Shown piece by piece: positions 736 to 6,679 of a stretch of 20,093 nt of DNA. Under the pieces are notes generated by a model. That model worked only from the letters and a program-made list of their open reading frames with translations. It was not told the DNA's origin and made no database searches. Position numbers and translations under genes: made by a program. Position 1 is the first letter of the stretch. The number at the start of each line of letters is the position of its first letter. Source of the DNA: a virus; IMG/VR virus record IMGVR_UViG_3300043431_000374, positions 1-20,093 of that record; one strand, 5' to 3'.

Positions 736-2118
736 CTAGTAAGTTGGGTTTTGGTAGTGCATGAATTGATGCTCAAACCTGAGTCTAACCCTTCCTAAAG
801 CCCCATGTCTATTCTTGGCAACAATGATTTCCCCCACGCCCTTGAGTGATTCCATAAGCTGTTCCCATTGCATGATTTCATTGACCTTACCCTCTGGTGG
901 TCTTTTGTCCTTGAGGTAATACTCTGGTCTATGGAGAAGCCAGACATTATCACAGTCATGAGCCATAGATTTACTCTCCCTGATGTCTGACATTTGGGGT
1001 GTGTTGTTCTCCCTGCGGATAACTTCATCATTGAGCTGTGCCAAACAGAGGATGGATATTTTGAGTTCATTTGCCAAGCTCTTGAGTTCCTGAGTGATGT
1101 AGTCTAGCTCTTCATGGCGTTGTCTGGCCTTGAGATTGGTTCTAACTCGCTGAACATAATCCACAACAACAAACGATACTTTGTTCTTTCTGTGCTTCTC
1201 TTTGGTTTTGGCAATGATTTCATCAACCGTAATGCCTGACTTTGAATACTGATAGAGAGGGAGCTTGAGGAGTTCAGCCTTAGCATCAAGTATTCTATTC
1301 ATCTCTTCTCCACTCACTTTTCCTGACCGAAGTTGTGTATTGAGAATTCTAACCTTAGGAATGAGCAATCTGTCCGCTAACTGTTTCCTTGTCATTTCAA
1401 GGTTGAAGTACAATGCAGGTATCCCCTGTGATGCAATATTGTAAGTGATGTTCGCTGCGATTGAGGTTTTTCCTGCACTGGTTGACCCTCCTAGCACAAC
1501 CAAATCTCCTGCCCCTAGGCCATTGCCAATCATTTCGTCAAGCTCTGTGAAGCCTGTTGGAATGATACCAGACATATCTCCCCTGATTCTTTTGTCTATC
1601 TCTTGGATTGATTCTTCTAGGGCAAAACTGATGTGGTCTTCCTCCTCTTTCTCGTCTAGCTGTTCTGTGAGCCTTGAGAACTCTCTCGTTAATTCACTCA
1701 TGGTTTCTTTTGCACAGGATGAATCTGACTCCATAGCCCTAGACTTTTCCTGAGCAAGGGAAGCTCCAATCCGAGCTACATAATTTTCTCTCATAATCTT
1801 TGCGTACTGCTTTGCGTCATTGGTTGTTATCCTAGTTTGACCTGCCTCTGATAGATTGACCATAGCTTGCCTGAAATTTTCATCAGCATCGCCTGCAATG
1901 TATGTTCTGATGTATCCCTTTAGCTTCTCGAAAAGAATGCCTGTAGAGAAGGAATATCCATGAATTTTGCACTCCATGAAATACTCCCATGTCTTCCCCA
2001 GAAACCCTTCTTGAAAATGCTCTGGAGGAATAACTGAAAACGGTTCGAATAGCTCTGGAGAATATCTCTGAATGATTGCTCCAACTAACTGGACTTCTAA
2101 TGTTGACTTAACCTGCAT
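736..2118 (-). CDS. Replicative DNA helicase, DnaB type
   Basis: This 460-residue protein has the two-part DnaB plan: an N-terminal helical collar (about 1-110), a linker, then a RecA-like motor (about 180-455). Visible motifs are Walker A GSTSAGKT (211-218), the H1a glutamate in YFNLEM (E241), Walker B VVVD (D320), H3 with LAQLN (Q361), and the arginine-finger loop AKNRHG (434-439). As a hexamer it unwinds the fork 5' to 3' on the lagging strand and recruits primase. It is the phage's own copy, placed 24 bases downstream of the O-like initiator that probably loads it. ATG at 2118 has GGAG 7 bases upstream. All catalytic residues appear intact. Confidence 0.96.
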   Translation of the reverse strand: MQVKSTLEVQLVGAIIQRYSPELFEPFSVIPPEHFQEGFLGKTWEYFMECKIHGYSFSTGILFEKLKGYIRTYIAGDADENFRQAMVNLSEAGQTRITTNDAKQYAKIMRENYVARIGASLAQEKSRAMESDSSCAKETMSELTREFSRLTEQLDEKEEEDHISFALEESIQEIDKRIRGDMSGIIPTGFTELDEMIGNGLGAGDLVVLGGSTSAGKTSIAANITYNIASQGIPALYFNLEMTRKQLADRLLIPKVRILNTQLRSGKVSGEEMNRILDAKAELLKLPLYQYSKSGITVDEIIAKTKEKHRKNKVSFVVVDYVQRVRTNLKARQRHEELDYITQELKSLANELKISILCLAQLNDEVIRRENNTPQMSDIRESKSMAHDCDNVWLLHRPEYYLKDKRPPEGKVNEIMQWEQLMESLKGVGEIIVAKNRHGALGRVRLRFEHQFMHYQNPTY

Positions 2119-2142: not shown

Positions 2143-2961
2143 TTAGGAATACTTAGAGACAGTGGAGACATTCGCTGTCTTTGCGAAAGCTTCATACTGT
2201 GCAAAGGGTGAAGAAGATTGCTGAGGAGATGAGATTAATCTTTCAATCTCTCCCTTGTCATCCCAAGCCTGAGCATTAAGCCATGTCTGAGGATGTTTGA
2301 GATACTTTTCATCTGGTGTCCCTATTTTTGCTTTCATCTCTGGAAGCACTGCATTCAGGACTGACATGATTGTTTGATGGTCTGTTGATCCTCTTGCTGT
2401 TTTGTAGAATCTGAAGGCTGATTTCTTGTCACCAGCTTTTCTTGGGTATGCTTTCCAGAATTCCTCAAACTCTGTCTTCATGGCTTCCTCTTCCTGAGTA
2501 TTTTTTGCTTTCTCCTTAGAAGTTAAATTTAATAAGTTAAGATTAATAAGTTCTGTGTGTAACTGTGACACCCCCCCTGTGTAATCATTACACCCCCCCT
2601 GTGTAACTGTTTCACTGGGTAGTGTATTATTTACACCATCCGAAAGTTGTATTGTCATGGGGGAGAACGAGAATGAGAATGTCGGTGGGACACTCAGAAT
2701 GTAGATATTGCACTTTTGCTCGTTGTCTTTGTACTGTTGTTTCCGAGCCAAAAAGCCTGCACTTTCGAGGTCTTTGAATTTAGAGAATACGGTCTTCCTG
2801 CTTAAGCTCGCCTCACTGGCAATGGTCTTGACGGTCAGGAAACAGTGCTTTGTGTTGTTGCGGGCATGGGAATTGAGGACATAGAGAATCAGCTTGGCTG
2901 AGGCATCGAGAGAAGATTTGTTAATTGCATCTTCGAATGAGTATACAGGTATTGATGACAT
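2143..2961 (-). CDS. O-like replication initiator / helicase loader
   Basis: The 272-residue protein has an N-terminal winged-helix DNA-binding domain (about 5-90, with TVKTIASEASLSRKTVFSKF as helix-turn-helix), a low-complexity linker (about 95-160), and a C-terminal domain marked by FWKAYPRK (168-175) and HPQTWLNAQAW (223-233). That C-terminal pattern is common in phage O-like and DnaT/DnaD-like replication proteins. The DNA coding the linker (residues about 109-135) holds four spaced inverted repeats followed by an AT-rich tract, as in lambda O, so the protein probably binds inside its own gene. A DnaB helicase gene follows. ATG at 2961 has an AAGGAA site. Function as initiator is inferred from domains and context. 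Confidence 0.85.
   Translation of the reverse strand: MSSIPVYSFEDAINKSSLDASAKLILYVLNSHARNNTKHCFLTVKTIASEASLSRKTVFSKFKDLESAGFLARKQQYKDNEQKCNIYILSVPPTFSFSFSPMTIQLSDGVNNTLPSETVTQGGCNDYTGGVSQLHTELINLNLLNLTSKEKAKNTQEEEAMKTEFEEFWKAYPRKAGDKKSAFRFYKTARGSTDHQTIMSVLNAVLPEMKAKIGTPDEKYLKHPQTWLNAQAWDDKGEIERLISSPQQSSSPFAQYEAFAKTANVSTVSKYS
2529..2636. other. Probable replication origin: four iterons plus AT-rich tract
   Basis: Four 15-base inverted repeats sit at 2557-2571, 2579-2593, 2601-2615 and 2622-2636, with starts 22, 22 and 21 bases apart. Copy two is perfect (GTGTAATCATTACAC). Copies one and three have imperfect right arms, and copy four is GTGTA-5-TACAC. The first three are joined by C-runs. Directly beside them is an AT-rich tract (about 2520-2556) with a 10-base direct repeat, TTAATAAGTT, at 2529-2538 and 2543-2552. 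A spacing of 22 is not a multiple of three, so the repeats are kept at the DNA level. Iterons on one side and an easily melted tract on the other, inside an O-like gene, is the lambda origin layout. Origin activity is inferred. Confidence 0.75.
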
Positions 2962-3089: not shown

Positions 3090-3857
3090 TCAGTTAATGA
3101 GTTTGATTTTGTTTGCGACTTCACAGCCTAACAGGGAATTATTAAGAAACTCTTCATAGACACCACGCATCTTTGAGCTTGCATCACGCCCTCTCTTTCC
3201 AGAATCTGAGCTTGATTTGGTTTTGTGGAGTGTGTCGGTGGCAACTGATTCACCGAATGAGATACAGTGAAGGGATGGGGCTGTGAGATGGTCACGCAGG
3301 TTATCTTTCTCAGATAAACCTAGAACGCCTGATACAGCCTTTCTATCCATGTCAAATGTGCCACGATAGATTTGATTCGTCATGCTGGCAATCTGAACGC
3401 CCGTCTTCTTGTATTCAACAGCCGTTTGAGACAAGGTTTTTCTGACTTGCTTGCCGTCTGAGCGTACTTTGAGCCATTCAGGGGATTTTGTTGTGACGGT
3501 GGGCAAAACTTCTTTAAGCTCATTCTGCACCAATTTGATGACAGCATACTTGAAGTCCACACTAATCCACTGGGCGAGGTCAATTGCAATATCAGGATGA
3601 ATCCAAGTTTGAGAATTTCGACCTCTTCTTGCTTCCATTAATTTAGATGCGACTTTTCTCGCTTCTACAGAAACCTTCTCAAAAAGCTCTCTTGTTTCTT
3701 TTCTTCTGAAAAACTCATTCCATCTTCTGCCACCAGCTCTGCACAAGGCCGTTGCATTGACATAGCCATCACTGATTCGGGATTCAATGAGAACACCGTT
3801 GATAGTTACAGATTTGGTGGGGATTGGTTTTTCTTGACAAATGAGTGTTTTACTCAT
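3090..3857 (-). CDS. KilA-N domain DNA-binding protein (antirepressor-like)
   Basis: This 255-residue protein has a KilA-N domain at about 15-110, with the typical DGYVNATALCRAGGR start, a basic RRWNEFFRRKETRE stretch and the WIHPDIAIDLAQWISVDF end. The C-terminal 145 residues, rich in Ser, Lys and Val, are not recognised. KilA-N proteins bind DNA, and many act as phage antirepressors or early regulators. ATG at 3857 is preferred because AGGAG lies 6 bases upstream; the ATG at 3862 meets a stop at once. The gene is read from a promoter at 3925-3953, and its leader carries a terminator-shaped hairpin, so expression is probably controlled after initiation. Identity of the domain is firm; the regulatory role is inferred. 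Confidence 0.85.
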   Translation of the reverse strand: MSKTLICQEKPIPTKSVTINGVLIESRISDGYVNATALCRAGGRRWNEFFRRKETRELFEKVSVEARKVASKLMEARRGRNSQTWIHPDIAIDLAQWISVDFKYAVIKLVQNELKEVLPTVTTKSPEWLKVRSDGKQVRKTLSQTAVEYKKTGVQIASMTNQIYRGTFDMDRKAVSGVLGLSEKDNLRDHLTAPSLHCISFGESVATDTLHKTKSSSDSGKRGRDASSKMRGVYEEFLNNSLLGCEVANKIKLIN

Positions 3858-5282: not shown

Positions 5283-5373
5283 TATCGGAGTGAATGCCGA
5301 TATTCTGTGAAGTCCTTTGTTGAAAAAGTAATCCGTTAGAAGCCCCCACTTTTTAATCCTTGGTGGGGGTTTT
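5283..5373 (+). ncRNA. Candidate small RNA, plus strand
   Basis: From the predicted start near 5283, the plus strand has a hairpin (TATCGG at 5283-5288 with CCGATA, 8-base loop), an unstructured A/T-rich middle, and a terminator (CCCCCAC 5343-5349 with GTGGGGG 5363-5369, then TTTT). No convincing open frame lies in it. Promoter, two hairpins and terminator give a compact unit of about 90 bases in the spacer between two leftward genes. Leftward mRNAs reading through would be complementary to it, so it may act as an antisense RNA. Evidence is structural only. Confidence 0.35.
5343..5373 (+). terminator. Rho-independent terminator, rightward
   Basis: Seven-base perfect arms CCCCCAC and GTGGGGG enclose a 13-base loop and are followed by TTTT on the plus strand. 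On the minus strand the hairpin is followed by CTTCT, a poor U-tract, so it suits rightward transcription better, although every gene nearby is leftward. Confidence 0.5.
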
Positions 5374-5379
5374 GCTATG

Positions 5380-5829
5380 TCAGACAAACAGGATTCTGAG
5401 GTTAGAAAGCCCCTTTTCAATGCGTGTTCTATTCTCCGCTGTAATGTAAATAACAGACTTGTTTTTTAAGTAAAACTCTACTTCTTGAATAGCAATCTCA
5501 GGGACTTTGAAGTATTTCGATTTGGCTTGTATAGTATGTAACCCTGCCCTCCAAGTGAGGAAATCGAAGCTTTCGAAGCTTGTTTTGGGTTTTGGTTTCT
5601 CTGGAAGATTAAGTGTTAATCCTATCATTTGCATAGCCTCTGGAAGCGTGTCCTTGAACAATTCGAGTAAGTAGGTGGGCGAGTATTGGTCTTTGTTGAA
5701 GTAGGTATAATACTCTTTCGTTGTGATTTTAAGAATGGCTGTGAAGTCTTTTATTCTCCATCCTGATGAGAGGATGGCATCGTGCCAGTTAATGCTTTCT
5801 GTTGCTTTTTTCTCATCCAGTTTGTCCAC
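5380..5829 (-). CDS. Hypothetical protein, about 149 residues
   Basis: The frame ends at 5380 and no family is recognised. It has no ATG before the overlap with the upstream nuclease gene. GTG at 5829 (AAAGG about 9 bases upstream) gives 149 residues and a 79-base overlap, and GTG at 5904 gives 174 residues but looks like out-of-frame nuclease sequence. The region from about residue 15 (NWHDAILSSGWRIKDFTAIL) followed by TTKEYYTYF may be a helix-turn-helix; the rest is mixed alpha/beta. Such an overlap is unusual here, so the start is doubtful. Confidence 0.5.
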   Translation of the reverse strand: MDKLDEKKATESINWHDAILSSGWRIKDFTAILKITTKEYYTYFNKDQYSPTYLLELFKDTLPEAMQMIGLTLNLPEKPKPKTSFESFDFLTWRAGLHTIQAKSKYFKVPEIAIQEVEFYLKNKSVIYITAENRTRIEKGLSNLRILFV

Positions 5830-6269
5830 TTTGATGCCCTTTGCTTTGAATATTCTGCTGTTGTTCCCTTGGCGGTGGAGATTGTGAGAGGGTGCGAATA
5901 ACACACTTCAAACAGTCTTTTTGTGCGTTGAAAGTGTTTGTCCTTGAGAGTTGGCTCTGATTTGAAATCTTCCACCACAAGAACGCCATCTCTTAGGTAC
6001 ATGAAGTCTGCCGTGAAGTCGCCAATGAGTTGGGTTGCTCCTTCGACAGGTAACCGTGTTCCATCCTGCCTTATGTATCCCATACTAGCGTACAGAGGAA
6101 ACACGACCTGCCTTTCAAGGTTTTGAATCCCGCACTGCCTTTCCTCTTCTCTTAGAGCAAGCCATCTTTTGTACTCCCCCTTGCTATCGAAAGTTCCATC
6201 TTCTGTTGTGACTTTGATTGCCCTAAACTTTGATTTAAACACCATCCTGCCTTTCAATTTCCACGCCAT
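5751..6269 (-). CDS. DUF1064-type phage nuclease (PD-(D/E)XK fold)
   Basis: The 172-residue product matches DUF1064 phage proteins, thought to be PD-(D/E)XK nucleases. FDSKGEYKRWLALR (27-40) carries the first acidic residue (E32), ADFMY holds D88, and VVEDFKS (98-104) supplies the (D/E)XK core with E100 or D101 and K103. The C-terminal 40 residues are polar and longer than usual. A role in processing recombination or replication intermediates is inferred. Two in-frame starts 24 bases apart (6269 and 6245) each sit behind the same AAAGGCAGG sequence because of a direct repeat. The first is annotated. Confidence 0.75.
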   Translation of the reverse strand: MAWKLKGRMVFKSKFRAIKVTTEDGTFDSKGEYKRWLALREEERQCGIQNLERQVVFPLYASMGYIRQDGTRLPVEGATQLIGDFTADFMYLRDGVLVVEDFKSEPTLKDKHFQRTKRLFEVCYSHPLTISTAKGTTAEYSKQRASKWTNWMRKKQQKALTGTMPSSHQDGE

Positions 6270-6280
6270 CCTGCCTTTCA
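6242..6280 (-). repeat. 15-base direct repeat duplicating a start site
   Basis: CCATCCTGCCTTTCA occurs at 6242-6256 and 6266-6280. Read on the minus strand, each copy is a ribosome site plus ATG for the nuclease gene, in the same frame. A 12-base part of it recurs at 6064-6075, and CTGCCTTTCA recurs near 6109-6118, both within the gene. Confidence 0.7.
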
Positions 6281-6286
6281 GGATAC

Positions 6287-6299
6287 TAGTTAATTACCA
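6287..6299 (+). repeat. 13-base motif TAGTTAATTACCA, shared by spacers
   Basis: The same 13 bases occur at 9393-9405, and a close copy (CAGTTAATTAACA) at 5228-5240, which contains the palindrome GTTAATTAAC. All three lie 17-33 bases upstream of a gene start (6269, 9422 and 5195), and the copy at 9393 overlaps a -10 box. It could be an operator for a phage regulator. Confidence 0.4.
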
Positions 6300-6316
6300 T
6301 ATTTTGGTGGGGTTGT

Positions 6317-6679
6317 CTATTTTTTTGGCAAGATTTTTGTCCTTGTGAATATCATTCCGTCGGCGCGGTATTTACGGCCACCATGTAACTCATTGAAATT
6401 TATATATTTTTGGCATTGCGTTGCGTTTTTGTTGAGTGTGAAAAAGTTCTGTCGTTTTGGTGCAAGGATGTTAATCCCGTCGCCGTCATTATCCTTAATG
6501 GCTTTGAGGGTCTTTAAACTGTCTATCATGTCCTTAAAGTCCACGGTTTTTTTTACCCTCTTTTTGCGTGGTTTTTTGGTTGCTGTAGCGTCTGTTTTAG
6601 GTGTGGGATGTAGGGTAGTAGCTTGTTTTGTTTTTGTCGCTGTACACGCTTTAAATGTAGGTTTTTGAATGTCTGTCAT
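6317..6679 (-). CDS. Hypothetical basic protein, 120 residues, Lys/Thr-rich
   Basis: The first 45 residues are low-complexity, rich in Thr, Ala, Lys and Pro, with a KKPRKKRVKK patch that could bind nucleic acid. The rest (DFKDMIDSLKTLKAIKDNDGDG...) may be a small folded domain. No family is recognised. ATG at 6679 has AGAGG 7 bases upstream and the gene follows its own likely promoter (6716-6744). It may be a nucleoid-type or single-strand-binding accessory protein, but only composition supports that. Confidence 0.55.
   Translation of the reverse strand: MTDIQKPTFKACTATKTKQATTLHPTPKTDATATKKPRKKRVKKTVDFKDMIDSLKTLKAIKDNDGDGINILAPKRQNFFTLNKNATQCQKYINFNELHGGRKYRADGMIFTRTKILPKK

Follow-up and report, generated by a model that had tools for sequence, protein, structure and literature searches.

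A predicted replication origin within the initiator gene of a phage, and covariation of its iteron half-site with a recognition-helix residue across related initiators

The metagenomic IMG/VR record IMGVR_UViG_3300043431_000374, taken whole (20,093 bases, possibly a genome fragment; hereafter the window), carries four similar palindromes inside the coding region of a predicted replication initiator. The question raised by this locus is whether the palindromes are the replication origin of the phage, read by the very protein in whose gene they lie, or whether transcriptional control, the encoded protein sequence or the C-runs between them account for their presence. The features on which the answer rests are as follows.

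736..2118, minus strand: phage DnaB-type replicative helicase gene (DnaB_C, 6e-67; phrog_19), next downstream of the initiator gene
2143..2961, minus strand: initiator gene, 272 amino acids (Pfam HTH_36, 3e-11, 43 bits against a cut-off of 25; phrog_270 replication initiation protein, 7e-36 over residues 8-251; AF2 model)
2520..2555: AT-rich tract on the C-terminal-coding side of the array, with a 10-base direct repeat at 2529-2538 and 2543-2552; presumed unwinding element
2557..2571: iteron 1, GTGTAACTGTGACAC, 0 or 1 mismatch from GTGTAANNNTTACAC
2579..2593: iteron 2, GTGTAATCATTACAC, perfect palindrome
2601..2615: iteron 3, GTGTAACTGTTTCAC, 0 or 1 mismatch from GTGTAANNNTTACAC
2622..2636: iteron 4, GTGTATTATTTACAC, 0 or 1 mismatch from GTGTAANNNTTACAC
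2572..2600: G/C-run spacers, CCCCCCT at 2572-2578 and CCCCCCT at 2594-2600
2616-2621: third spacer, TGGGTA
2695..2937, minus strand: winged-helix domain, codons 9-89 (AF2 helices plus hairpin; PDB fold matches)
2758..2799, minus strand: recognition helix, residues 55-68
2794-2796, minus strand: codon of K56, within S54-R55-K56-T57, the top mutual-information column
3090-3857: KilA-N protein gene (Pfam), next upstream of the initiator gene

In the AF2 model, the initiator is composed of an N-terminal winged helix (HTH_36), a disordered linker (residues 98-136, pLDDT below 50) and a C-terminal helical domain. The winged helix comprises helices 9-15, 20-32, 44-51 and 55-68 and a hairpin at 71-89, mostly with pLDDT above 85. 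Its PDB fold matches, all with E values above 0.001, include the RepA N-terminal domains 4pql and 4pt7 and the Rep-DNA complex 5kbj, among other winged helices. Pfam searches of the protein at E values up to 0.001 returned no match to Phage_rep_O (PF04492) or to RepA_N (PF06970). The 'O-like' label of the first-pass annotation therefore fits the architecture of the protein but not its family, which is HTH_36/phrog_270; the best account of the sequence is that this initiator would work like Phage_rep_O and RepA_N proteins while belonging to neither.

The four GTGTAA-N3-TTACAC sites start at 2557, 2579, 2601 and 2622. They had been described as 15-base inverted repeats spaced 22, 22 and 21 bases apart; sites and spacing stand, but only one is perfect and the other three carry one mismatch each (five of six arm pairs). 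No further site within two mismatches of GTGTAANNNTTACAC exists anywhere in the 20,093-base record. The array inside the initiator coding region is beyond chance: synonymous shuffles that permuted codons among identical residues across the gene, and so preserved its protein sequence and codon usage, gave at most three sites and never four (0/5000), and the best co-clustered palindrome family in the gene has four members where the null reached at most three (4 of 3000). The iterons occupy codons 109-135, within the disordered linker, and fall in coding-strand frames 1, 1, 2 and 0, yielding the unlike peptides GVNNTL, SETVTQ, GCNDYT and VSQLHT. Because the shuffles never give four sites and the copies span three frames, selection at the DNA level is the better account, as had been argued earlier from the non-repetitive protein.

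The neighbourhood of the array agrees with the initial description as well. The AT-rich tract adjoining it has an A+T content of 83% (57% record-wide), a value reached by only 23 of the 20,057 36-base segments of the record, and its 10-base direct repeat, TTAATAAGTT, has just two copies in the record, which start 14 bases apart at 2529 and 2543. The C-runs between the repeats are real (2571-2577 and 2593-2599), and the gene that follows the initiator gene does encode a phage DnaB. The minimum of the cumulative GC skew, at 2010, lies near the array yet off it and, for a 20-kb record that is perhaps incomplete, is only suggestive as a pointer to the start of replication. An Rfam search gave no match, and the portal protein of the record is similar to epsilon15-like podovirus portals (37% to epsilon15 itself, 41.5% for the best match).

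We consider it very probable that the array (2557-2636) is the phage replication origin, bound by the initiator of its own gene, with the AT-rich tract as the site of melting and the phage DnaB as the helicase loaded there. Winged-helix dimers of the 272-residue initiator would bind the four palindromic iterons in the linker-coding part of their own gene, with one recognition helix reading each half-site and K56, at the start of that helix, tied to GTGTAA. The resulting helically phased complex would bend the DNA, the neighbouring tract at 2520-2555 would melt, and the C-terminal domain may help to bring the product of the downstream gene, the phage DnaB, onto the opened strand.

A direct search of viral contigs found no relatives of the window initiator, and the six relatives among annotated phages were all weak; we therefore reached its families through motif and alignment searches. 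The first, which looked for paired motif copies in sequence collections without using protein information, led to arrays in the linkers of winged-helix initiators from unrelated records (L005, L006, L008, L010, L011, L015, L019, L035, L036, L037 and L039, among others), whose Pfam assignments were HTH_36, RepA_N (L015, L039) and Phage_rep_O (L037, 7.7e-16). The second was a protein-homology search that did not use the motif; together with the motif-found genes it gave 306 genes, or 173 once near-copies were removed. Arrays of at least three palindromes are present in 100 of these 173 initiator genes. Under the strict test (at least three palindromic copies, unmatched by any of 30 synonymous shuffles), the remaining 73 are without an array, so the layout is not universal among the relatives. 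The first-pass annotation had held that relatives keeping the gene while lacking the repeats would speak against an origin; such relatives are found in part, some scoring low (L051, L070 and L072, for example) and several with repeats that are visible yet below threshold (L005, L036, L050 and L135). Its central proposal, a lambda-style origin inside the initiator gene, is supported by the comparison, the layout recurring in about 100 divergent initiator genes, and a lambda-style function of the array may be regarded as well supported by inference from these sequences. Among the other motif matches, the cyanobacterial minisatellites L017, L027, L029 and L031 were rejected as origins, as were L025, L026, L044 and L385, which are tandem repeats of coding sequence, and palindromes that stand singly or in isolation, such as L014, L020, L028, L032, L041, L043, L386 and L388.

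The shared layout was quantified in 82 arrays with at least three regular copies, which contain 241 gaps. Between iterons the distance is 20-24 bp in 234/241 gaps, and in 69 of the 82 arrays the copies are not all in one frame but fall in two or three. On the side that encodes the C-terminal part, the flanking 60 bp lie, by median, at the 3rd GC percentile of their own gene (31st on the upstream side), and in 67/82 arrays this is the more AT-rich of the two sides, the same side as in the window. GGG or CCC is found in 157 of the 241 spacers, compared with 114 ± 6 after synonymous shuffling. Aligning the relatives, as had been suggested earlier, thus showed that layout and spacing are kept but that the repeat sequence itself varies between lineages. 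The gap nearest the AT-rich side is larger than the preceding one in 49 arrays and smaller in 16; in many relatives, with L060, L064, L134, L144, L183 and L196 as examples, the spacing is graded, each successive gap towards that side being some 2 bp longer (20, 22, 24).

The origin-in-initiator-gene architecture is already known from lambda, TP901-1/Tuc2009 and pSK41, and the window is a further case. The replisome organizers of TP901-1 and Tuc2009 bind repeats within their own genes, and these repeats serve as ori (PMC8965321); by their published description, these lactococcal phages of the P335 group resemble the window in having the origin as repeats inside the cognate replication gene, while their downstream genes differ. 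The P335 replication protein is a tblastn match of L011, a motif-sharing relative, and its linker carries repeats spaced 22-23 bp, below the strict threshold; the half-site TTTACA-CAAA-TGTAAA differs from that of the window, though the helix reads SKKT. These linker repeats of Lactococcus phage P335 (L365:986-1795), present also in L368, resemble the GTGTAA site turned inside out.

For lambda, the repeats in the O gene have been shown experimentally to be the origin (PMC7466680). Like the window, lambda has four palindromic iterons with an A-rich core in the middle of the gene, spaced 20, 24 and 23 bp (21, 22 and 22 in the window, coding strand), and an AT-rich tract on their 3' side; our array detector recovered all four. 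The two differ in that the window protein lies outside Pfam Phage_rep_O and a phage DnaB gene follows it, whereas lambda P brings the host DnaB. The Phage_rep_O-matching L037 nevertheless has its iteron in common with the window. Among plasmids, pSK41 has four Rep boxes centrally in rep, the linker being encoded by the origin, and these repeats, too, have been shown experimentally to be the origin (PMC5703833). The RepA_N initiators (pSK41, pTZ2162; 4pql, 4pt7, 5kbj) share with the window, by fold match, the winged-helix N-terminal domain, and the RepA_N-type L015 and L039 carry both the GTGTAA iteron and K; both match PF06970, whereas the window protein does not. In a further difference from the window, the C-terminal domain of pSK41 Rep contacts DnaG primase (PMC5703833). 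The Rep of the S. aureus plasmid pPR9 begins with an HTH_36 domain (PF13730) that resembles a phage replication protein and is located in an exchanged region that takes in the origin (PMC5703833); its C-terminal domain is pSK41-like, unlike that of the window.

The iteron half-site varies by lineage and covaries most strongly with the residue at the position of window K56: K goes with GTGTAA, P with GTAAAG, and R with GTGA or GTGC. When all winged-helix columns were tested in 66 arrays with a canonical motif, this column came first in mutual information with the half-site (excess 2.51, z 14.4; second column 1.27), and protein pairs with the same residue have more half-site bases in common at every identity level of the remaining domain. 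K is paired with GTGTAA in 10/10 arrays of this set and is present in 16/16 GTGTAA lineages with the array in or beside a winged-helix gene, against a background of 10/152 (6.6%) among the protein-homology relatives. Three further initiators, L381, L382 and L383, came from the last motif scan, after the rule had been formed, and all have K. Two near-minimal pairs agree with the rule: L006 (SRKT, GTGTAA) and L213 (SRRS, GTGAAA or GTGCAA) are identical at 86/103 residues, and L066 (N) and L068 (K) at 72/101. The arrays of L012 and L018 lie outside coding regions and adjoin winged-helix genes with SNKT. The covariation is not everywhere independent of phylogeny, however, and well-supported branches give only three independent changes involving K, all consistent (sign test, p 0.25).

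In a prospective check on 17 named phages the rule had mixed success, performing best for R and poorly for K and S. R with GTG then A or C fits mEp460, ST64B, D77, Y8A, LLC-1 and bajarodcaudo virus 2, several of which match in the first four bases only, and N fits in FCOV-S2 (GTGCAG). S gave a near-match in mEp021 (GTGGCA) and failed in PD491P1 (DKST, GTTGGA), and K failed in P335 and 50901 (both SKKT); ZF40 (SKSA) showed no clear array, and the remaining named phages have residues that the rule does not cover. ctCJ8213 (L129, SRST), with GTGTCA and a 4-base core, had already been used in forming the rule. Since K also occurs with another half-site in L302 (NRKT), K alone is insufficient for a GTGTAA half-site; the lambda recognition region, PVKR, falls outside the pattern. 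We think it fairly likely that the third residue of [S/T][R/K]X[T/S/G] at the helix start largely sets the half-site in HTH_36, Phage_rep_O and RepA_N initiators, according to the following proposed code.

K: GTGTAA
R: GTGAAA or GTGCAG
P: GTAAAG
N: GTGCAA
Q before T or S: GTCAAA
Q before G: TTAAAC
S: GTGTCA

The covariation of recognition-helix residue and half-site supports recognition of the array by the initiator, and this bears on the alternative that the palindromes are operators, through which the initiator or the upstream KilA-N protein regulates transcription of the replication genes, with the origin elsewhere. Operators are also typically palindromic and the KilA-N protein is a possible binder, yet the array lies mid-gene, promoter-like sites nearby are not in excess of those in shuffles, and relatives likewise show the regular spacing, close to two helical turns, and the AT-rich neighbour. 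Since in addition the half-site follows the initiator's own recognition helix, and repeats in the cognate gene are origins in TP901-1, Tuc2009, lambda and pSK41, we regard an operator array as improbable. That the repeats merely mirror the protein, a low-complexity Gly/Pro/Thr-rich linker with chance codon repetition, is less credible still. Plain coding repeats do occur among the DNA-pattern matches (L025, L044 and L385), and linker composition partly explains the spacers, shuffles still keeping GGG or CCC in 114/241; but four different peptides in three frames that no codon shuffle reproduces, the two or three frames of most relatives' arrays, and the arrays of L012 and L018, outside the initiator gene and next to a winged-helix gene with K, all speak against it. 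Equally hard to credit is a primary function of the C-runs as G-quadruplex or i-motif with the palindromes secondary: G/C runs are enriched in spacers and present in the non-coding L018 array too, but the window has only two long runs, 15 bases apart (on which ground a window-only G-quadruplex was rejected), and the relatives' runs of at least four fall on either strand (94 G, 27 C) and are absent from 120/241 spacers.

Read as an origin, the window feature adds a new phage to those with this known design. Origins have rarely been mapped in phages; the follow-up gave a large set of predicted ones, in which palindromic iterons 20-24 bp apart, with G/C-run spacers, adjoin an AT-rich tract towards the C-terminal-coding end. 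Superinfection incompatibility and phage-encoded resistance both depend on origin specificity. If the code is true, the origin specificity of phages and plasmids would often be readable from sequence, and initiators would switch specificity with the iterons in their own gene switching along; even an incomplete initiator-to-iteron rule allows direct testing with natural protein and DNA variants. We found no description of the covariation in the open-access literature searched, a scope that takes in few subscription journals, and it looks new.

Several observations stand apart from this argument. The minisatellites of Amazonocrinis nigriterrae (L017, L029 and L031) repeat a GTGTAACNNTTACAC-like palindrome as many as 14 times at intervals of exactly 21 bp, with no initiator ORF across them, and an unrelated function is likely. 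The array at L018:5207-5313, made up of five GTGTAA iterons that are all near-perfect and recur every 23 bp with G6 spacers between them, sits just upstream of the HTH_36 gene 5321-6358 (SNKT). Its contig, binned as a woesearchaeal archaeon, may be from a virus or plasmid or may have been misbinned. The enterobacterial-type initiators L006 and L035 have winged helix and linker in common and differ in the C-terminal part, as if this domain had been exchanged at the origin. Finally, successive AATAATACT / AATAATATAGAT units often make up the presumed unwinding stretch (for example in L055, L060, L068 and L197) and encode an Asn-rich linker (PNNTNIYNTNNN).
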